Source: a virus. From it: a DNA stretch of 37,642 bases. This document shows positions 2,769 to 35,772 of the stretch, one piece after another. Below the pieces are notes generated by a model. That model was not told the DNA's origin and did not search any database. It was given only the letters and a program-made list of their open reading frames with translations. Where the stretch lies: positions 1 through 37,642 of IMG/VR virus record IMGVR_UViG_3300031111_000020. One strand, written 5' to 3'. The position numbers were made by a program, and so were the translations under genes. Position 1 is the stretch's first letter, and every line of letters begins with the position of its first letter.

Positions 2769-3034
2769 TTTCCTCCGTACAAGTTAATGCCCAGGAGAGA
2801 GAAACCTCCAAGAACCAGGGCGATTACGACGAAGCGGATAACTGCCCACTTAATCGATTTGATCTGTGTCACCCATTCACCTAAGGCTTGAATGTGGGGA
2901 GACATCTCTTTAAGCATTTCGTGATCTGCTCTGTGTTGCTCAGATTCCATCTTGCAGGTATTGCAGTACTCCGCTTGCTGGAGAGCGTTCACGACTTCTC
3001 TGGCGATGCTTCTTCTTTCCTCTGATGTGATCAT
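2765..3034 (-). CDS. Membrane-anchored small protein of the lysis cassette
   Basis: The 89-aa protein has a soluble N-terminal region with a CNTC pair (residues about 24-27), a HRADHEMLKEM helix, and one C-terminal membrane segment (about AVIRFVVIALVLGGFSLLGI). Similar proteins of about 90 aa are common beside phage holin and endolysin genes; their role is not settled. The ATG at 3034 overlaps the amidase stop as ATGA, and the stop overlaps the next gene the same way, so three lysis-region genes are coupled. A holin-regulator or spanin-like role is possible but unproven. A longer upstream start would run inside the amidase gene and was rejected. Confidence 0.75.
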   Translation of the reverse strand: MITSEERRSIAREVVNALQQAEYCNTCKMESEQHRADHEMLKEMSPHIQALGEWVTQIKSIKWAVIRFVVIALVLGGFSLLGINLYGGK

Positions 3035-3438
3035 ATCGCAGCCCTTTCTACGAAATCTTTGACATCGAAGTCTGGGCATGTCTTGTGGTCGTTGACCTCA
3101 TAATGTCCTCTGATGTCTTCAGGTTTGAGGTCGTACTGCGCCCGGAGCACCTGGAGCAGTTGGCGAAGGGAAGCTGCCTGGGCCATCGTGTAAAGACCTT
3201 CCTTACCTATCAGGCAGATTCCTATGGATGATGTGTTATATCCTCGGGCGTGAATGCCGATCTCTGAGTCCGGAAGACCCTTCTCGACAGTCCCATCCCT
3301 CAAGATGATGTAGTGGTAACCGACCTTCGACCATCCGTTTCCTTTAGGTTTCGGGTCGGTGTGCCACGCTGTAATCATCTCAAGGTTTCCGATCATGGAT
3401 GCGCTGCAGTGAACAAAGATGGTAGTGATTGGTCTCAT
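3031..3438 (-). CDS. N-acetylmuramoyl-L-alanine amidase endolysin (T7 gp3.5-like)
   Basis: This zinc amidase cuts the bond between N-acetylmuramate and L-alanine of peptidoglycan. The 135-aa protein aligns with T7 lysozyme by eye: VHCSAS (zinc ligand H10), GYHYIILRDGTVEKG, HARGYNTSSIGICLIG, and a GHYEV...KTCPDFD end giving ligands H112 and C121, with catalytic Y41 and K119. The start at 3438 overlaps the upstream stop as ATGA and has GGAGG ten bases before it; an ATG nine bases earlier sits on the ribosome binding site. In T7 the homologue is an early/middle gene that also inhibits T7 RNAP; here it is in the late lysis cassette. Whether it also binds the phage RNAP is unknown. Confidence 0.93.
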   Translation of the reverse strand: MRPITTIFVHCSASMIGNLEMITAWHTDPKPKGNGWSKVGYHYIILRDGTVEKGLPDSEIGIHARGYNTSSIGICLIGKEGLYTMAQAASLRQLLQVLRAQYDLKPEDIRGHYEVNDHKTCPDFDVKDFVERAAI

Positions 3439-6400
3439 TCTTTCCATGCCTCCGGAATTTCCATGAATTCTTTGGGAGGTGAAGGTTTCCCTATGGCATC
3501 CCTAGTCTTCTTTTTGCGCTGTCTCCGCAGTTCGTCGCCAGTTATCCAAACTTCATTAGCGATCCTCTGCGTGTCCCATACCTTGTTCCTGATGTATTCA
3601 TTGCTGAAGGTCTCATCTTCAAGGAGCATTCCCTTAGCTATTTTGTAGAATGCGTTGATAACCTTGTCTGCGACCTGACGCTCAAGGTTTGGATACCGCT
3701 TCTCTGAGCTTAAGAACTCTTTTGCGAGTTCATTCATGCTTTCCTTCATTTTCAGCTTCTCTCCCAGAATGCGCTTGAACTCATACTTCTGCTCAGGCGT
3801 AAGCTCAACACCGAGGACTTCTTTAGGTGTCCGCTTAGTCGGGAGGCCGATGTCGTCAAACCACTGTGTTGAAGGAGATGTATCAGGAGTTACTCTCTTC
3901 GCCCCTGTTGCCATACGGTATCCCCAACTGTATTTTTCTACCGGTTCACCCATCCAATCGAGTTTCTGCTCGAGAAGAGTTGATGCGTATGTCTGCTTAA
4001 TCATGTCAACGAACGTCTGAACCTCTCGTAGGTGCGGATCGATCATGTCGTTAACACTCCCGGCAGCTCCTGAAGCTGGTAGAAATGTTTTCCCGAAACT
4101 CTTCGTCCAGTAAGGTAGCCTCGCTCCTTCGTCGGCAACTGCTACAGCGATGTCCTGCACGCCTTTTAGATATGTTTTGGATAGCAGGTTGTTAGAGAAG
4201 CTGAGGAGGAAGAACTGCATGATTTCCCAACCCTCATCTGTGTCGAACCTCGATATCATGGTTGCCATATCTGCGGTCAGGCCCAAGAACATTCCGAATG
4301 GGTCGTTCCTGTTGTACTGATAATACTCACCGTTGATCTTGATTGAGTACTCAGGTATGCCTGCCTGGATGAGCCTACTTCTCTCAGAAGGATCGTGAGA
4401 ACCTGTGACATCCATTGAGGCGACCAAAGCGGAGGTTATTGTGTATATGCCGAAGCTGACTGCCAACTGCGCCAACGCTTTGTTCTGTTCAATAGGATTC
4501 TGACTGCGCAGGCCATCTCGCAGTTTCTTCGATGCGAAGTTCGCAAGAGGTGTTCTTGAGCCAGCGAACTTTGCGATGTTCAGAGGTGTTCTGAAGAAAG
4601 GAATGATGAACTTGGTAGAAGGGAACTGGTTCAGGAGTTTCGTGACCCCTTTACCTCCTTCTCCGAGTTCGGCCTGCCACACGAGTTCTCTGGCTTTCAC
4701 TCTGGTGCTCTCAGCAAGCTCCTCGATGAACTCTTTCGTGAGAGGATCGAGTGCCTGCTTCTGCCCCCTAAGGTGCTTCAGGAGTATGTCAGAAACCTCA
4801 TTGGCGTACCTCACTGCCTCTTTCGGTTCTTTCCCCATATCCAGAGCCTTACGCATTGCAAGACCTTTGGCCTCCATCTCCACGATGATTGTCTTCTGCA
4901 CAGCATCCATCATGTTGAGAGGCGCAAAGGAAACGCTTCTGAGTCCCTTCCCGAGCGCATCGACACCTTTGTACATCGCATTTGCCACTGACGATTCAGG
5001 GTGCTGCCCGAGTCGGATGAACGGATCAACCCAGGAGTGCTGAAGGTTCTCCCTGTTAAAAGCTGTCTCTTTGCCGACCTCCTGTGTTCTGATTAGAGGA
5101 TCGAGGGAGATGTCTTCGGACCACTTCTCGTAGTTGAACTCTTTGAAATTCTTAAACGCTTGTCCTGGGTTCTGCGCTGAGAACTTGATACCACTCACTA
5201 CTCCTTTGACAGGAACAGAGAGGTAGTACTTCAGCATTCCAGATGCAAATGTGGTCGCTCTAATAGCTAACTCCTGCGACTTCATGCGACCAGGTTGGTT
5301 GCGTGCCTTTCCTATTGCCCAGCCTATAGCATCCTCACCGATCTCGTAGGCAGACCTCAGGATGTTCGACTCCATGTTGACCATGAAGGTGTTCTTGCTG
5401 GAGAGAAGGTTTGCCGTTCTGTATTCTACGATGGCACGCATGAGATGAGATTTGCTTATTTTCTCAGCTTCTCTCAGCCTCGCCTCTGTTCCCTTCTTCT
5501 CTGTGAATTCTTTAGCGACCTGCCTGACCCTTTCTAATCCACCTAAGATGTCTACAGATTCAACTACCTGATGCCGTACCTCTGCAGCGTCCATCATCTC
5601 AGGCGTAAGATCGGCGACCTTGAACATCTGCCCGTTGACACGGATGTTTCCTGAAGCTGTCGCCCTGGCAATGTTGGAGGTTGCTCCTTTGACGTATGCG
5701 ACGACATCGCCCATCAAGCGATACTTGTCGTAGAACTTCAGGAGGTTAACTTCAGTTGGGGCTTCTAGGGCTTTTCCAGCCAGATCGAGAACGTGCGAAG
5801 ATAGACCTTCCGTATACGCCCTCCACCGCACAAGTTTAGCTGCCAGGTTATCTGTGTTCCGTGCAAAAGTTGCGAGTTCTTCCATCGTCTTGCCTGTGAG
5901 AAACTTGGCATCTTCCTGCGCCTTGGCGATTGTCTCTGCGTGTGTTTCAGGTTTAGATCCCAATTCGTAGGCTTTATCCAGGTTATCTTCGAGAGCTTTC
6001 TCGATGCCCTTCCCAACTTCAGCAGCTGTGTCGTACCTGTAGATGTTCAGGTGGTCACCATCCGGTGGAATAGCAGGTTCACCGTCGTTAACCCTTGTGA
6101 AGAAATCATGCAGACTGTTATCCATGTGTTCCCTATTAACCTGTACCCTTGGAACGAACTGGTCCAGGCCGATAGGTTCTTCAGCAATGATAAGCTGGCC
6201 TTTCCTGGTGACCCTATTAAAGTGACGCCCAACTTCAGCAACGTAGTCAGCTGTCTTCCTGTTGTTCTGCCAACCCTTAGAAGTCTCTGCGCCGTAACCG
6301 TCACCTTTCCCTTCGTACACTGAGAAGTATGCCTTGCCATCAGCTTTAATTGCGTTCGCTGCCTGCATGATCACACGTTCCCTGATGTCGCCTTCTTTGA

Positions 6401-7838
6401 TAACGTTCAGGGTGTTGTTCGATATAGCGACATCGGCCTGCCCATTTGCGTGTTCATTGGCGACCTTCCTGTTGTGCTTCGCATCTCTATTGAATGGGTC
6501 GTAGACCGAGAGTTTGACACCGAGATTACCGAGGTACTCGACCACATTGTCGAATCGCCCTCCTCCGATATCGATAACCTTCTGCCCCTTGACCCATCCT
6601 CCGAGTTTCTCAATCGCCTTAATAGAAGCAGGCATCTTGCTCTGGTTGATAGATGTGTCAGCTGAGTCGAACTCCTGAATCTCTCCGACTCTATCGAAAT
6701 CCCACAGAACAGGATCGAATCTATCGGTGCGCAGAACATCTATGACCCCTTCTTCCTTCCACTTCTTACCTACTTCCTCTTTTGCCTCAGCCTGCGCACG
6801 CTCCTCTTTCAGGCGGAAATCCCTGTTAGGGTCTGCTCGTAACTCCTTCAGCCCACTCGTTCCTGCAGGGCCGGTCATGCCGTAGATAAACCCTACACCT
6901 ACAGATTCCAACGCCTGATTCATGTCTCCGGTGTGGGCGTAAGTCTGAGCACCGAACATGCTCCCCATAACGGAAGTCTTCAGCAGACGGTTGAGGTCTC
7001 CTGTGTAATGGAACACCTTACCAACAGCATACCGTTCAGCACCGGCAAGGAGGATATCCTTCATGGCCTGCGCAGGTGTTTCGTGATCTTTTGTGGCTTC
7101 GACGAGGGTGGCCCATGGAACTCCCATCATGAATTCGCCGATTCCAGGAATTGCTCCACCGACAGCCCCACCGACAACGTTCTCTACGCCTGTATGGAAC
7201 TTATTCGGTTGACCGTGTTTGCGAGTATTAGCTTCCAGTTCAGCATCCATTATGGCTGCATTCTTGACGTAGAAAGCGATTCCAGCATCAAGTTCATCAC
7301 TGACAGCCTGCTTGAGGTTGTCCCACTGTGTTTTTGTCGGTTTGGCTTTGTACAGAGTCTTCTCAATTTCTTTGTCGTACTCCATACCTCCAGCCAGCAG
7401 AGGATCGTAACCTGAAGATTCGATGGTGTTGACAATCATTCCTCCAACGTCTTTCAGGTTCTGCCCGAGACTCGCTACTCCGTGGTTAAACGATGAGATC
7501 GCCTTCATGCCCCACCGCTTAGTCGTGTTAAGCGACTCTCCTAATGAAGCAGAAACAACTTCATAGTCTGAAGTCGTACGTCCGCCTACGATCTTAGGAG
7601 AGGTTCTCCCGGAGTGATCCCCGACGTACTTATCAGGAACAAACTCTTCTTCTTCTTCTTCAGCAGGCACATGCGGATATTCTAGAGCCTGGGTAGGAGC
7701 GAACAGGAACTTACTTGCGTACTCCATGTACGATACGTCTCCGGTTGGGTGATCCTTCTTCCATTTAGCCTCAGCTAATTCCTGGTCGCCCATATCGGAG
7801 TACTGCGGGTACTTCTCTCTGAACTCAGTAATATTCAT
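3435..7838 (-). CDS. Large internal virion/ejection protein (gp16 position) with embedded methyltransferase-like domain
   Basis: The 1467-aa protein follows the gp14 and gp15 homologues and is similar in size to T7 gp16 (1318 aa), which is ejected into the cell with the DNA. It opens with an EFREKYPQYSDM motif common in phage internal proteins. No T7-type lytic transglycosylase motif is visible. Residues about 398-553 instead look like a class I SAM methyltransferase: VIDIGGG (423-427 DIGGG), VYDPFNR, ISNNTLNVI, and AYFSVYEG. The C-terminal half is helical with FIIPFFRTPLNIAK, as in large phage polyvalent/internal proteins. The ATG at 7838 is better spaced from GGAG than the GTG at 7844. It probably helps DNA entry; the enzyme role is inference. 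Confidence 0.85.
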   Translation of the reverse strand: MNITEFREKYPQYSDMGDQELAEAKWKKDHPTGDVSYMEYASKFLFAPTQALEYPHVPAEEEEEEFVPDKYVGDHSGRTSPKIVGGRTTSDYEVVSASLGESLNTTKRWGMKAISSFNHGVASLGQNLKDVGGMIVNTIESSGYDPLLAGGMEYDKEIEKTLYKAKPTKTQWDNLKQAVSDELDAGIAFYVKNAAIMDAELEANTRKHGQPNKFHTGVENVVGGAVGGAIPGIGEFMMGVPWATLVEATKDHETPAQAMKDILLAGAERYAVGKVFHYTGDLNRLLKTSVMGSMFGAQTYAHTGDMNQALESVGVGFIYGMTGPAGTSGLKELRADPNRDFRLKEERAQAEAKEEVGKKWKEEGVIDVLRTDRFDPVLWDFDRVGEIQEFDSADTSINQSKMPASIKAIEKLGGWVKGQKVIDIGGGRFDNVVEYLGNLGVKLSVYDPFNRDAKHNRKVANEHANGQADVAISNNTLNVIKEGDIRERVIMQAANAIKADGKAYFSVYEGKGDGYGAETSKGWQNNRKTADYVAEVGRHFNRVTRKGQLIIAEEPIGLDQFVPRVQVNREHMDNSLHDFFTRVNDGEPAIPPDGDHLNIYRYDTAAEVGKGIEKALEDNLDKAYELGSKPETHAETIAKAQEDAKFLTGKTMEELATFARNTDNLAAKLVRWRAYTEGLSSHVLDLAGKALEAPTEVNLLKFYDKYRLMGDVVAYVKGATSNIARATASGNIRVNGQMFKVADLTPEMMDAAEVRHQVVESVDILGGLERVRQVAKEFTEKKGTEARLREAEKISKSHLMRAIVEYRTANLLSSKNTFMVNMESNILRSAYEIGEDAIGWAIGKARNQPGRMKSQELAIRATTFASGMLKYYLSVPVKGVVSGIKFSAQNPGQAFKNFKEFNYEKWSEDISLDPLIRTQEVGKETAFNRENLQHSWVDPFIRLGQHPESSVANAMYKGVDALGKGLRSVSFAPLNMMDAVQKTIIVEMEAKGLAMRKALDMGKEPKEAVRYANEVSDILLKHLRGQKQALDPLTKEFIEELAESTRVKARELVWQAELGEGGKGVTKLLNQFPSTKFIIPFFRTPLNIAKFAGSRTPLANFASKKLRDGLRSQNPIEQNKALAQLAVSFGIYTITSALVASMDVTGSHDPSERSRLIQAGIPEYSIKINGEYYQYNRNDPFGMFLGLTADMATMISRFDTDEGWEIMQFFLLSFSNNLLSKTYLKGVQDIAVAVADEGARLPYWTKSFGKTFLPASGAAGSVNDMIDPHLREVQTFVDMIKQTYASTLLEQKLDWMGEPVEKYSWGYRMATGAKRVTPDTSPSTQWFDDIGLPTKRTPKEVLGVELTPEQKYEFKRILGEKLKMKESMNELAKEFLSSEKRYPNLERQVADKVINAFYKIAKGMLLEDETFSNEYIRNKVWDTQRIANEVWITGDELRRQRKKKTRDAIGKPSPPKEFMEIPEAWKE

Positions 7839-9556: not shown

Positions 9557-10051
9557 TTAGATTCCTTCCTTCGCTTTCAGAAATTGTAAGTGAGACCTGT
9601 GGCCGGAAACACCCGCAGATGCTATACCTAAGCCCATCTCAAGTAATCCTGGTTTAGAAGCTTTAGCCTGCGCTACCCTGGAATTGCGGGTAACCTCAGC
9701 CTTCTGTAATTGCAGTCTGTTCTGCAGTATGCCTGACTCATAGTTGTAATCGATGTTCCCTTTGCTAATACTCTCCTGCGTGATCTCGTTATTGATCACT
9801 GCGAGTGGGGAAACTCCTGCCTCTGCTCCTGCTACACTAGCTGTGCTCCGTCTCTTCATTGCAGCCAGGGCATTCGATAGGACATCTGAGCGGTGCTTCA
9901 CTCCCTGCTCATGCGCATTCTGCTCGAGAGCAGCTTTGTCTGAAGCGTAAGCAGCCTCTGCACTATTCTCCATCGCATTCGCCTGAGAACGTGCTTGCAT
10001 TGAACCGACGAGTGCAGAACCGATTGCTAATGCGGTATTGAGTTCACACAT
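9557..10051 (-). CDS. Internal virion protein (T7 gp14-like)
   Basis: The 164-aa protein begins MCELNTALAIGSALVGSMQA, the short hydrophobic N-terminus typical of gp14 homologues. It continues as a long Ala/Gln-rich helical region with repeated small residues, and ends with GLGIASAGVSG. In T7, gp14 (196 aa) is ejected first and forms a channel in the outer membrane. AAAGGA sits ten bases before the ATG, and the first 25 nt overlap the end of the gp13-like gene. Order gp13, gp14, gp15, gp16 is preserved. Confidence is high from order and N-terminal character. Confidence 0.85.
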   Translation of the reverse strand: MCELNTALAIGSALVGSMQARSQANAMENSAEAAYASDKAALEQNAHEQGVKHRSDVLSNALAAMKRRSTASVAGAEAGVSPLAVINNEITQESISKGNIDYNYESGILQNRLQLQKAEVTRNSRVAQAKASKPGLLEMGLGIASAGVSGHRSHLQFLKAKEGI

Positions 10052-10524
10052 GCGTTTATTCCTTTCGTGAACATGTAAAACGGTTCGTAAGAATGGAGGT
10101 GATGAATTGTGTCTTCATGGATCGTAAATCCCAGCCACTTCAACCAATCCTGTGCCTCTTCGTTTGCAACGTGAACGAAGTTAAACAAGAACGGAGACAT
10201 TTTCGAAAGCCCATCAATCACCATACGAGATTCTCTGGCAAAGGTTATCCTGTCCCTCTTGTTCTTGAATAGATCGTTTGAGCATAGGAACCAGGGGATG
10301 CAGAAGTTCTCCTTACCAACTCCTGCAAACCCCCAGAATCCTACTATCTTTCTGTCCTCGTTCTCGATCACATAGACCATGTTGGAAGACCTTACTGAAA
10401 ACTCCACCGCTTCACGAACGGGTAGTCCTGTTGCGCTTACCACTTCCACCTGATCAATCTCTCTCAGTTCCATATCTAGAACTCTTTCGATGTCTGTGGT
10501 TTCCATGATGCGGTGCGTAATCAT
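10027..10524 (-). CDS. Internal core/assembly protein (T7 gp13-like, DUF2833)
   Basis: The 165-aa protein has a GNAT-like layout: RIMETTDIERVLDMELREID at the N-terminus, VYVIENEDRKIVGFWGF as a central strand pair, PWFLCSNDLF, and a C-terminal DWLKWLGFTIHED. This matches the phage gp13 family, which folds like an acetyltransferase but whose members are assembly factors for the virion core in T7. No proof of enzyme activity is visible. The ATG has an AGGAGA site at good spacing and follows the gp12 stop by eight bases. Confidence 0.85.
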   Translation of the reverse strand: MITHRIMETTDIERVLDMELREIDQVEVVSATGLPVREAVEFSVRSSNMVYVIENEDRKIVGFWGFAGVGKENFCIPWFLCSNDLFKNKRDRITFARESRMVIDGLSKMSPFLFNFVHVANEEAQDWLKWLGFTIHEDTIHHLHSYEPFYMFTKGINACVNSIPH

Positions 10525-30711: not shown

Positions 30712-33135
30712 TCATGCGAAAAAATAAGGGGAGTTCTTTACAACAGAAATATCCAGGTCGCCCTGCTGTGGTGTAGGGGGTACTGCATCTTTCAGATTAG
30801 CAGGGAGTTGTTCCACTACCTCCTTCCTGAATCGTTCAAGCTGATTCGTTGAGTACATCTGAACAAAGGTTTCTCTTATTGTCTCGTGGAGTTCAGGTAT
30901 CATGGATGCATGCGCCCCGATACTGTCGTGGATCGTAGTGATCGGACTATCCCAAGCGTTGATAACAGACATAAGATGGGAAGCGTCGTTCGAGTGGATG
31001 TAGTTCGGGGAAATACCTTGAACAGCTCTTCTCGAATCGAGGTTATCCCACTTACTTTCCTTCATGCTTACCCTGATCCTGTTCTCACCGAAGTAGGTAT
31101 TGATTCGCAACGTGTCCTCTTTGGCATACTCCTGGTGAACGAGAAACCCTGAGGGTGTCGTCCACTTAATAGGGATGCCTGCCTGGACCGTCACTTTCGC
31201 TACCTCATGGAGCCAATCCATCACCTGTCTAGAGGCTGTCACAACCGTACCTATCGCATCGTGCAGTTTCTCAGCGTAGTACCGAATGGCCTCGAAAGAA
31301 TCTCCATCTATCTCAAGGTAGTTTTCCTTGATCTTCTCCAGGTCTCCTTTCAGTTGAGTGCGCAACCCATACTTCTTCAAACCGTACGGAGTACACATCA
31401 CAGCACGCTTTGTGGTCTTCCTTGTTATTTTCCCTTGCCATATAATAGCTTCAGGCACACCTTTATCAGCATCAGCCTGAACCATTTCGATAAGAACATC
31501 GGCAACCTCCTGGTAAATGTCTTGCGGTTTGTTTCCTGGGAGAAGGTTCACTGGAGCGGAACCGTCCAACAGCAGAGCACTCAGGTGCTGCAGACCGTTA
31601 CATGTCCCGTCCATAGCTACAGGCAGGTAGGAGACACAATCTAGCCCGTAGTCCATCCACCGTGACCATTCGATACAGAAGGCGAGAAACTGCCACGGTT
31701 CATCGGCTTCAGTCCACCAGAGATTGTTAAGTGCATCAATCCCACACTTGTAGATTTCCTTCTCGTTGTCGGACACCCACTTGTACCGCTCAGGGAAGCT
31801 CACCTTGTCTACACCGAAGCAGTTGGCCCCGTGGATCGCAAGCCAGTACGCCCCCTGCTGGTCGAGCTTAACTCCGTCCGCAAAACGCAGAAGAGATCGT
31901 CCAGCATCATCGGCCTGGGGATTCACGAACCCCTGCAATGGGTACACCCTGCCTCGGAAATCGGAAGCCCACACAAAGTAGATCGCCTCTTCATCCATGA
32001 ATTTTTCAGCGAGGCTAATCTTCATGCCTGTGGCAATGCGCTTGCTCCTATTGCGTACTCTCTGGATGTACACATCCGCAGCTTGCTGCTTCCACATCCT
32101 TAGAACGTCCTTAGCGGGGGCATTGTCGCTATCATTCCAAGGTTTCTTTGGTAGAGGCTCCAGGTCAGAGCAAGGAAGACCGGCTATATCACCACCGGCT
32201 TGCCAGAGTTCCTTCATCACCTTGAGTACTCCACTGTTGATGGCCCATCGTACATCCTGCAGTTTGTTGATAGCTGAGTACACCTCCGGCATGTCCAAGT
32301 TTTTGATCGCACTCTTCGCCTTCGGGTTGTCAACCTTGATCATCTTAACCTTGCTCAGTGGAGACATGTACCCACCATCATCGATTGAAGTCCAAGGCTT
32401 AGGAGGAATGATCATCGGGTAGAATATGGGCTGAAGAAGTTCACACTTAGAATGTGCGTCCGCCAACCACGCATCTACCTCAGGAGTAGGCTCCAACACA
32501 ACAGGAGTGTCCTTGCCTCTCTTCATCTTCACCCTACGAGGTGTGACCATGCCAGTGCTCTCGGCGAACATCGTGATGGCACGCATCCCAATCGCTAATC
32601 TCTCAGACTTGTCGAACTCAATGAGACCCTTTATTCCGATCCGATTTTGCGAAGCAGTGATCACACGCTTCCTGTGTGGAGAAGTGGAGTACTTCATCTG
32701 CTTCTCTAGCACATAGATATACCCAGGATTCTGCTCTTTAAACGTCTTGTACTCGTACTGGTCAATGAGGGACTGACCGAGGCGCAGTGCTATGCCTTGG
32801 ATGTACTCCCCGTTAACTCGTGACATTGTGAAGCTATTAATGATCACCTTTGCCGTGATAAAGGCGATCTCCTCATTAGGCAGTAAACGAAAAAGCTTTA
32901 GGGTGGAGAGGAACCGACCTGACCCACGCCCTGACTTCTCTTTGAAGGCACGGAGAGCATCAATCATGGGTTCCATAGATAATCGCATTAGACGACTCCC
33001 AGGAGGGAGTTCGGATAAGGGAGTCGGTTTTTTCTGATCACCGTGAAGCTGCTTCCTGTATCTGAGAATGGAGTACTGCACGGCTTCATCTTCAAGCGCA
33101 AGCTGACGCTTTAAATCTCCTATTGATACACCCAT
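30712..33135 (-). CDS. Phage single-subunit RNA polymerase (T7 gp1-like)
   Basis: This 807-aa enzyme (T7 883 aa) transcribes middle and late phage genes. It carries DFRGRVYPLQGF, motif A AMDGTCNGLQHL (D509), motif B TRKTTKRAVMCTPYG (K576, Y584), and motif C TIHDSIGA (D737), with the C-terminal SPYFFA foot like T7 FAFA. The ATG at 33135 has GGAGG eight bases before it; GTG two codons upstream is too close to the ribosome binding site. Its leader holds a promoter of its own class (P3), so it probably drives its own synthesis once made. It is separated from early genes by attP. Confidence 0.97.
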   Translation of the reverse strand: MGVSIGDLKRQLALEDEAVQYSILRYRKQLHGDQKKPTPLSELPPGSRLMRLSMEPMIDALRAFKEKSGRGSGRFLSTLKLFRLLPNEEIAFITAKVIINSFTMSRVNGEYIQGIALRLGQSLIDQYEYKTFKEQNPGYIYVLEKQMKYSTSPHRKRVITASQNRIGIKGLIEFDKSERLAIGMRAITMFAESTGMVTPRRVKMKRGKDTPVVLEPTPEVDAWLADAHSKCELLQPIFYPMIIPPKPWTSIDDGGYMSPLSKVKMIKVDNPKAKSAIKNLDMPEVYSAINKLQDVRWAINSGVLKVMKELWQAGGDIAGLPCSDLEPLPKKPWNDSDNAPAKDVLRMWKQQAADVYIQRVRNRSKRIATGMKISLAEKFMDEEAIYFVWASDFRGRVYPLQGFVNPQADDAGRSLLRFADGVKLDQQGAYWLAIHGANCFGVDKVSFPERYKWVSDNEKEIYKCGIDALNNLWWTEADEPWQFLAFCIEWSRWMDYGLDCVSYLPVAMDGTCNGLQHLSALLLDGSAPVNLLPGNKPQDIYQEVADVLIEMVQADADKGVPEAIIWQGKITRKTTKRAVMCTPYGLKKYGLRTQLKGDLEKIKENYLEIDGDSFEAIRYYAEKLHDAIGTVVTASRQVMDWLHEVAKVTVQAGIPIKWTTPSGFLVHQEYAKEDTLRINTYFGENRIRVSMKESKWDNLDSRRAVQGISPNYIHSNDASHLMSVINAWDSPITTIHDSIGAHASMIPELHETIRETFVQMYSTNQLERFRKEVVEQLPANLKDAVPPTPQQGDLDISVVKNSPYFFA

Positions 33136-33235
33136 AGGCACTACCTCCTGATTTAAGTTTTGAGGTTTGTTGTTTTGTGGGTTTGAAACTAAGAGTTAAT
33201 CTTTAAGAAGGGAGTAAACATTGCGCACCATGCAA

Positions 33236-34127: not shown

Positions 34128-35159
34128 TCAATCCTCCTGTAGGAGTTGCACTGCCTGTTTCAAATTGGAAGGGGCAAGGTGCGCATACCTCTCTGTAACC
34201 TTGATGGTCGAATGCCCTAGCAGTTCCTTGACCACATAGAGGTCGGCCCCTCTTTGAACCAGGCGGGATGCGCAGGTGTGCCTCAGGGCGTGCCACACAA
34301 ACTGCGTGTCACCATCGAGGCCCATCAGGGAGCGCACCTTTTTCCAGTAGTGCTGACACTGATCCGTGGTCATGGGGAAGAAGCGTTCCTCCCCCTCTCT
34401 GTTCATGATATTCTTCCGGACATCGAGAATATCTCGGACCAGAGGGATCATCCAAATCGATCTAGGCACATCCGATTTATTCTCCCACACATGAATCAGA
34501 CCTTCCTTAAAATCCACATCCGAATACTTCAAGGCAAGAGCTTCGCCCAACCGCATCCCTGTGTTCACCAGGACCAACGCCAGGTGTCCAAACTCAGGGA
34601 CATTCCATTGGTCGAACGCTGTTGTGATGGTTTTCAGTTCGTCCTTGGTGATCACCCTGATTCGGCCCTGTGTTTCCTTTTCCATACGGAAGAATGGAAC
34701 CTTGTCGATGGCATCCCATTCCCTCGCAGCGGACCTGAGTATAGTCTTGAGGCAGGCGTAGTTTCGGTTGATTGTTGCGGGTCTGTTCCCTCTAGCTTTC
34801 AATTCCTTCCCGAGAGAAGCAACCACATCGTTCGTGATATCGGACAGGTACAGGTCACCTATGATCTCCATGATCCTGAATGCGGTGCGATAAGATTTCT
34901 CTCCATCCCTGAGGGACATCCACCGCTCTTCATAAATCTTGTCGATTGCATCCGATAGTTTCATAGAGGATGAGGACTCGCATATACCTGTAAGTTCATC
35001 CCTGAGCCTCTTCATTTCAGCGTCCTCAGCCCGCTCCGCTTGTCTTCGGCCCTTGTCCCTCCGTGTATCGTTCCGAGGCACGCCAGTGCTCTTACTAACA
35101 CGGTGGCCTAGAACCTGGAAGTCCATGACCCACTTGTTCCCTCTGAGATAGACCGTCAC
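34128..35159 (-). CDS. int: Tyrosine recombinase integrase
   Basis: The 343-aa protein catalyses site-specific integration, most likely at the tRNA-Leu half-site 700 bp away. It has an N-terminal arm-binding region (VYLRGNKWVMDFQVLG), a SAM-like core-binding domain at about 65-165, and catalytic residues R203 (NTGMRLGEAL), H290 and R293 (HALRHTCASRL), H316 (LLGHST) and nucleophile Y325 (ERYAHL). The GTG start overlaps the regulator stop as GTGA with AGGAGG nine bases before it. Related phages of the T7-like group carry int before RNAP. Confidence 0.96.
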   Translation of the reverse strand: MTVYLRGNKWVMDFQVLGHRVSKSTGVPRNDTRRDKGRRQAERAEDAEMKRLRDELTGICESSSSMKLSDAIDKIYEERWMSLRDGEKSYRTAFRIMEIIGDLYLSDITNDVVASLGKELKARGNRPATINRNYACLKTILRSAAREWDAIDKVPFFRMEKETQGRIRVITKDELKTITTAFDQWNVPEFGHLALVLVNTGMRLGEALALKYSDVDFKEGLIHVWENKSDVPRSIWMIPLVRDILDVRKNIMNREGEERFFPMTTDQCQHYWKKVRSLMGLDGDTQFVWHALRHTCASRLVQRGADLYVVKELLGHSTIKVTERYAHLAPSNLKQAVQLLQED

Positions 35160-35560
35160 TCTTCATCACCTCCTGGGCATCCTGTTTTGCATTCTTCTGG
35201 GCTTATGTCTTCGCACTCCATGATCTTCTGCAATTCCGAGTACAGCTTGGCCCCCTTAGGAGTCAATCCTGCGCTAAACCTCCGACGCTCGTACATGTCC
35301 GGCCTCGTGTACACAAGATTGTATCCCCTGAAGGTTCCCTTCGCACTGTCGGGAAACCTAGACAGCATCCGCATGTTCCTCGATACGGAGCCTTGGGGCA
35401 TGTTCAGTTTCAGGCCAATTTCGGGCATAGTGATCGGGTTATTGGTAGGACGTTCTCCAACGAGCAAGAAGATGAGCACCTGTTGGACAGGGATATCGAC
35501 ACTGACTGATTCTCTAATATGCTGAAGTGCTTCAAACAGTCGAGCAGTACAGATATCCAT
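35156..35560 (-). CDS. MarR-like winged-helix transcription regulator
   Basis: The 134-aa protein has helices at the N-terminus (RLFEALQHIRESVSVDIP), a recognition-helix region TMPEIGLKLNMPQGSVSRNM, the wing with RRRFSAGLTPKGAKLYSELQ, and an acidic Cys-containing tail. It is a likely lysogeny-control or int regulator. The ATG at 35560 has AAGGAG seven bases before it; upstream frame to 35593 has no such site. It directly precedes and overlaps int, so both share an operon. Specific targets are unknown. Confidence 0.82.
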   Translation of the reverse strand: MDICTARLFEALQHIRESVSVDIPVQQVLIFLLVGERPTNNPITMPEIGLKLNMPQGSVSRNMRMLSRFPDSAKGTFRGYNLVYTRPDMYERRRFSAGLTPKGAKLYSELQKIMECEDISPEECKTGCPGGDEE

Positions 35561-35772
35561 TTCCGATCTCCTTCCGCAACCAGTTTTGGACACTTGTGCA
35601 TGAGGGAAACAAATTCCCCTGAATCAAAGTACTTTTCCTCCCCTGAACTTTTCCTGAGAAATGTGTGTGATCCGATAAAGGACTCTACCATTGTTCCATC
35701 AACGAGTTCAATCTTTACTGAAGCAACATTCGAAACTTCTAAATTAGGTTGGCGATGGTCTTTGTCTTCCAT
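35410..35772 (-). CDS. Small protein overlapping the regulator gene
   Basis: The 120-aa frame begins MEDKDHRQPNLEVSNVASVK with a strong AAAGGAG site, and residues about 1-70 look like a normal soluble protein. The last 50 residues are in a second frame over the start of the regulator and are Ser-rich and unlike the rest, so they may be only readthrough in an overlap, or the gene may have lost its natural stop by a frameshift. The N-terminal part gives no family match. It is the first gene after the probable promoter at 35830-35858. Confidence 0.6.
   Translation of the reverse strand: MEDKDHRQPNLEVSNVASVKIELVDGTMVESFIGSHTFLRKSSGEEKYFDSGEFVSLMHKCPKLVAEGDRKWISVLLDCLKHFSILENQSVSISLSNRCSSSCSLENVLPITRSLCPKLA

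Follow-up and report, generated by a model that had tools for sequence, protein, structure and literature searches.

The virus record IMGVR_UViG_3300031111_000020 (37,642 nucleotides, analyzed over its full length and called the window here) encodes, in the position of the phage T7 ejection protein gp16, a protein of 1469 amino acids (aa), P0001, with an embedded S-adenosylmethionine (SAM)-dependent methyltransferase (MTase) domain. The region of aa 390-558, numbered from the GTG start of P0001, is almost certainly an intact class I MTase domain with predicted activity. We favor the reading that it is a nucleic-acid-modifying enzyme that would be delivered at entry and act early on the incoming DNA. 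All features are listed with their coordinates in Table 1.

An intact class I methyltransferase domain

A first-pass annotation, made from the sequence alone, had proposed a MTase-like domain at 6180-6650. A held-out profile, built from 65 relatives and excluding the window sequence, detected aa 390-558 at 215 bits (E = 2.3e-65); it matched nothing else when run against the window's 690 six-frame open reading frames (ORFs) and against 200 shuffled domain sequences. The place was hence right, but the best boundary is slightly wider (6171-6677). In a Pfam scan of P0001, Methyltransf_23 was the sole match. It reached 29 bits (E = 1.1e-6; cut-off 27) when the domain was scanned alone, but stayed just below the cut-off when the whole protein was scanned (23.9 bits, E = 3.8e-5). 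Sequence searches of the PDB with the domain returned sub-threshold, generic MTases only.

The class I layout that had been read from the motifs was borne out by structure prediction. AlphaFold2, run on an alignment of 66 sequences, gave a confident model (pLDDT 91.2, pTM 0.86) whose strands and helices follow one another as in class I MTases, i.e. a Rossmann-like fold. A Foldseek comparison of the model with the PDB yielded 241 matches at E <= 0.001, the best of which were class I MTases, Trm9 and UbiG among them. Close structural neighbors in BFVD carried no useful names.

The four motifs on which the first-pass annotation relied (VIDIGGG, VYDPFNR, ISNNTLNVI, and AYFSVYEG) are all present on the minus strand, and their conservation was measured over 70 non-redundant relatives. 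Nine residues (D425, G427, G429, D449, N477, L479, N480, V481, and Q526) are shared by 98-100% of these relatives, and the window sequence has all of them. Within DIGGG and at D449 conservation was 91-100%, except for I426 (87%); D449 itself is invariant, and the N452 and R453 that follow it are kept in 91%. The motif IV region is similarly constrained (N477 99%, L479 and N480 100%, V481 99%, I482 97%), and AYFSVYEG somewhat less so (Y510 83%, G512 86%). Two further family motifs, unmentioned in the annotation, were also noted: SADTSxxQxxP at the start of the domain and TSKGWQNNRKTxxY, whose Gln (Q526) is invariant. A fold other than Rossmann-like, or SAM-pocket residues that vary among homologs, had been named in advance as arguments against a MTase; the predicted fold is Rossmann-like, and the pocket is conserved in the relatives and intact in the window. 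That the domain is a relic, kept for structure or SAM binding but no longer catalytic, is very improbable, given that all SAM-pocket residues are intact, as are N480 and Q526, which are invariant in the family, despite only about 54% identity to the nearest relative.

Table 1. Features of the ejection-type protein, its methyltransferase domain, and neighboring genes in the window
Feature	Position	Strand	Basis or remark
Class I SAM-dependent MTase domain, aa 390-558	6171..6677	-	Held-out profile, AlphaFold2, Foldseek, Pfam
Motif I VIDIGGG (SAM-binding loop), aa 423-429	6558..6578	-	Conservation in 70 relatives
Motif II VYDPFNR, aa 447-453; acidic D449 ends strand 2	6486..6506	-	Conservation
Motif IV region ISNNTLNVI after strand 4, aa 474-482	6399..6425	-	Conservation; LNVI also in TIGR04096
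AYFSVYEG (strand 5), aa 505-512	6309..6332	-	Conservation
Family signature TSKGWQNNRK, aa 521-530	6255..6284	-	Q526; near TFQK of TIGR04096 in alignment
Ejection-type protein (T7 gp16 position) with embedded MTase, 1469 aa	3435..7844	-	Open frame; PHROG 6651; Autographiviridae internal virion protein D
Conserved C-terminal module of marine autographivirus ejection protein, aa 952-1362	3759..4991	-	Common to the proteins named in the text
Gene in gp15 position, 566 aa	7854..9554	-	Position only; supports internal-core order
gp14-type internal virion protein	9557..10051	-	Pfam T7_gp14, E = 8.6e-11
gp13-type protein	10027..10524	-	PHROG 308, E = 3e-25; Pfam Phage_T7_Gp13, E = 0.0012, below cut-off

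Kind of methyltransferase

Phage-delivered methylases of the DarB type are N6-adenine enzymes with an NPP[YF] motif that are joined in one protein with LPD36 and a SNF2 helicase (PMC5512222). DarB of phage P1 resembles the domain described here in that it, likewise, is a methylase within a large protein whose entry alongside the DNA is known or predicted (PMC5512222). As to the kind of METHYLTRANSFERASE, the DarB type was excluded: the place of NPP[YF] reads NNTLNVI in the window and N[VT]LNVI in the family consensus, and neither LPD36 nor a SNF2 helicase was found in the Pfam scan of the window protein. A C5-cytosine (m5C) DNA methylase was excluded as well, as the domain has zero cysteines and hence lacks the catalytic cysteine of the PC motif. 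The comparison with polyvalent proteins carrying antirestriction domains that the first-pass annotation had made therefore holds in part: relatives of the domain do occur inside polyvalent-type proteins (see below), but the domain is not of the DarB type, and its closest named family is another one.

That family is TIGR04096, described as "DNA phosphorothioation-associated putative methyltransferase"; among the NCBIfam families, it is the one that some relatives match best (best E = 6e-5). The comparison was extended with 10 collected TIGR04096 MTases and 25 cellular UbiG/Methyltransf_11 MTases as controls. Profile-profile alignment (hhalign) of the phage MTase family with the TIGR04096 MTases gave E = 3.8e-10 (probability 96.7), and with the controls included, TIGR04096 MTases ranked first in nine of ten cases. 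All 10 TIGR04096 MTases scored 8.6-20.7 bits with the hidden Markov model (HMM) of the phage family, against at most 8.2 bits for the controls, a control set that is narrow and whose highest score (8.2) is barely exceeded by the lowest TIGR04096 score (8.6). The MTase domains of the two families can be aligned over about 117-151 columns and share D[IY]G.G, [YW]DP, LNVI, and a conserved Gln at nearby places. The relation is one of kinship, not membership, as judged from sequence, because the window domain has no match to the TIGR04096 HMM and no member of the phage family reaches its curated cut-off of 150 bits (best relative, 22 bits). TIGR04096 matches in Bacteroidota were weak or partial only.

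Some relatives also gave weak NCBIfam matches to tRNA and rRNA MTases (MnmM, RrmJ), and the best fold match in the PDB is the tRNA U34 MTase Trm9 (E = 2.5e-7). Possibly, then, the delivered domain methylates host RNA, e.g. the wobble region of tRNA, and thereby alters translation or evades tRNA-targeting defenses early in infection. We consider this unlikely: TIGR04096 outscores the tRNA/rRNA families in the NCBIfam scan (6e-5 vs. 0.02), the gene context of the relatives is that of DNA modification, and the Trm9 fold is common to many unrelated MTases.

The carrier protein

In its C-terminal part (aa 979-1376), P0001 matches the "internal virion protein" family PHROG 6651 (E = 4.5e-41); this part is also homologous to the "internal virion protein D" found in Autographiviridae, marine ones and others. 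The conserved module of this part is common to Syn5, CRP-114, ProddE, HTVC119P, jiawei, S2B, and ctgrD200. All seven MTase-free internal virion proteins of Autographiviridae that were examined had neither a MTase nor any Pfam domain, in which they differ from the window protein.

Gene order agrees with this assignment. The ejection-protein gene has gp13-, gp14-, and tail-type genes as its neighbors upstream, and an amidase gene and the large terminase subunit downstream, so that the order gp12-13-14-15-16 matches T7. The gene in the gp15 position found no match in the PHROG search (best E = 0.044). The term "gp16-type", used in the first-pass annotation, is thus accurate as a statement on synteny and on relatives in marine autographiviruses, but no similarity to T7 gp16 itself is detectable.

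Besides its position and a similar size, the window protein shares with T7 gp16 the presence of an enzyme domain and of hydrophobic segments near both ends (aa 222-248 and 1122-1149). It differs in the enzyme: T7 gp16 has an N-terminal lytic transglycosylase, whereas the Pfam scan of P0001 contained no transglycosylase family and the GxMQ-type (G.MQ) motif of T7 gp16 is absent, as the annotation had already stated. The enzyme of T7 gp16 also precedes the first hydrophobic segment, whereas that of the window protein follows it. According to a review, residues 1-156 of T7 gp16 are periplasmic, residues 243-410 and 1119-1290 form transmembrane regions, and residues 411-1118 are cytoplasmic and bind DNA (PMC8954989). 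By analogy, the MTase would be located on the cytoplasmic, DNA-facing side of the ejection protein, since it lies between the two hydrophobic segments.

Further genes of the window may be mentioned here. An Amidase_2 endolysin-type gene (3031-3447, minus strand) overlaps the end of the ejection-protein gene and could provide the wall-cutting activity that the ejection protein is without. Farther away, an integrase-family gene (34128-35159, minus strand; PHROG 1, E = 2e-57) and a transcription-regulator gene (35156-35593, minus strand) occur alongside a T7-type RNA polymerase gene (30712-33141). Possibly, the phage is temperate, which would be unusual for a T7-like virus.

Relatives of the domain and their gene contexts

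Scans of viral and genome contigs revealed about 100 relatives of the domain with 31-54% identity. Most of them are located inside very long ORFs (1000-4250 aa) encoding giant phage proteins of the polyvalent type. One such protein (L001, 4112 aa from the start codon) combines the MTase with the polyvalent-protein domains LPD38 and ART-PolyVal, an ADP-ribosyltransferase. Polyvalent proteins (Iyer 2017) unite several domains with disparate activities; in the window protein, Pfam and PHROG searches detected the MTase and the ejection module only. Protein-modifying domains are frequent in polyvalent proteins (PMC5512222), and together with the ADP-ribosyltransferase of L001 this could speak for methylation of a host protein, e.g. 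RNA polymerase or a defense factor. Searches of Pfam, NCBIfam, and the PDB brought up no specific likeness to MTases that act on proteins, and the gene context favors DNA, so a host protein as the target appears quite improbable.

The ejection-protein family of the window has MTase-bearing members on at least five other contigs (L003, L101, L059, L066, and L030), and these proteins have the C-terminal module as well. Four of them (L003, L066, L101, and L030) carry the MTase between that module and an N-terminal module shared with MTase-free relatives; in the window protein the C-terminal module is clear, unlike the N-terminus. In a tree of the domain, the copies from ejection proteins are scattered (parsimony, 6 changes), but a single clade is not rejected (p-AU = 0.38), so that the MTase may have been captured once or repeatedly.

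Several side observations concern these proteins. Two long polyvalent-type ORFs (L097 and L058) match the ejection C-terminal module at E of about 1e-13 and may link polyvalent proteins to the ejection proteins of podophages. Equating LPD38 of the polyvalent proteins with the ejection C-terminal module was unsupported by hhalign (probability 0.8), although the matches of L097 and L058 may still speak for it. The MTase-bearing proteins of L059 and L066 contain HExxH-like stretches (HEVAHVARR and HELWHSLAR), which suggest a zincin peptidase domain of the sort that polyvalent proteins carry, although Pfam reports none. On L068 (4352-7528), an ORF of 1059 aa combines the ejection N-terminal module with a MTase placed right at the end of the ORF; here the ejection protein may be divided over two genes.

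Free-standing, small versions of the domain were found in KVP40-like Vibrio phages, in a huge uncultured phage, and on Vibrio and Photobacterium plasmids. The KVP40.0066-like proteins of schizotequatroviruses belong to the same MTase family according to tblastn and structure search, but are small, belong to a T4-like phage, and are not part of an ejection protein. Delivery is consequently not essential for the family. The gene of the window protein, moreover, lies within the late structural cluster, and the MTase might act late in the producing cell, during DNA replication or packaging, and be packaged merely as part of the core protein. Its recurrence in ejection proteins and giant polyvalent-type proteins, however, points to a use at entry, and we regard late action as rather unlikely.

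The settings of other relatives connect the family to DNA modification. In Rhodocytophaga (L149, G002:C115:21500-38500), the MTase gene is flanked by two PAPS-reductase-like genes and adjoins a gene for the second domain of TIGR04096; nearby are genes for a N6/Eco57I methylase and for a protein with DdrB-ParB, DarA_C, and SNF2 domains. This island is mobile-element-like and may constitute a module that modifies DNA with both sulfur and methyl groups. On a Photobacterium plasmid, the second domain of TIGR04096 is a near neighbor of the MTase, and in Vibrio vulnificus (L013, 7482-8504) this domain, with the motif YHHKW, appears by eye to be fused ahead of the MTase. True TIGR04096 genes adjoin genes for DndB, PAPS-reductase, DUF4007, or cysteine desulfurase. 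We favor a nucleic-acid substrate, for which the gene settings of the relatives and of TIGR04096 appear to speak.

Proposed role

The proposed sequence of events is as follows: (i) an enzyme domain has been plugged into the variable middle of an ejection protein; (ii) the protein would be carried in the head as an internal core protein and exit with the DNA; (iii) on the cytoplasmic side, the MTase would meet the incoming DNA and use host SAM to methylate nucleic acid; (iv) most likely, the phage DNA would be the target as it enters, modified elsewhere than at N6-adenine or C5-cytosine; and (v) the entering DNA, once methylated, would escape recognition by DNA-sensing defenses. That the MTase domain is delivered with the DNA is probable, judging from the protein family and the position of the gene. 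That it modifies nucleic acid seems reasonably likely, because TIGR04096 is the nearest named family and relatives are found beside PAPS-reductase, DarA/DdrB, and N6-methylase genes. The whole chain, in which a delivered MTase protects the incoming DNA, is tentative, and we view it with somewhat more doubt than trust.

A number of observations weigh against this role. No direct homology to T7 gp16 was found by HMMER, by hhalign (profile of 13 relatives), or by PDB sequence search, and the N-terminal part of the window protein did not match a gp16-N profile significantly (E = 0.05). The domain contains no canonical motif of DNA-base MTases, and no target-recognition domain was identified. Its top Foldseek match is an RNA-modifying enzyme, Trm9, and the TM-scores of the Foldseek matches are moderate (0.5-0.6). 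TIGR04096 differs in having a second, C-terminal domain of the "HHKW" type (profile 314-468) that was not seen in the window protein: P0001 and P0002 were searched for it and gave no match. TIGR04096 itself is described only as a putative MTase. Also, no Dnd or PAPS-reductase gene was recognized in the window.

In a bolder version, the SAM enzyme of the DNA-ejection machine would modify the phage DNA during entry by non-canonical chemistry, possibly at the backbone, the sugar, or a pre-modified position, which would leave backbone-sensing or restriction defenses blind to it from the outset of infection. This version is suggested because the domain belongs with phosphorothioation-associated MTases; we regard it as speculative and fairly improbable.

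Enzymes delivered together with phage DNA are a known theme; the variation here lies in the MTase family and in its carrier, an ejection protein of a short-tailed phage. No description of this MTase in an ejection protein was found in the open-access literature searched, a limited collection. Phage-delivered methylases are known mainly as N6-adenine enzymes of the DarB type, whereas the window domain represents a different MTase family, widespread and found repeatedly both in giant phage proteins and in ejection proteins of short-tailed phages, with kin in sulfur-modification systems. With this domain one can ask concretely how ejection proteins act on incoming DNA apart from moving it, and which role TIGR04096 MTases play in sulfur-modification defense systems.

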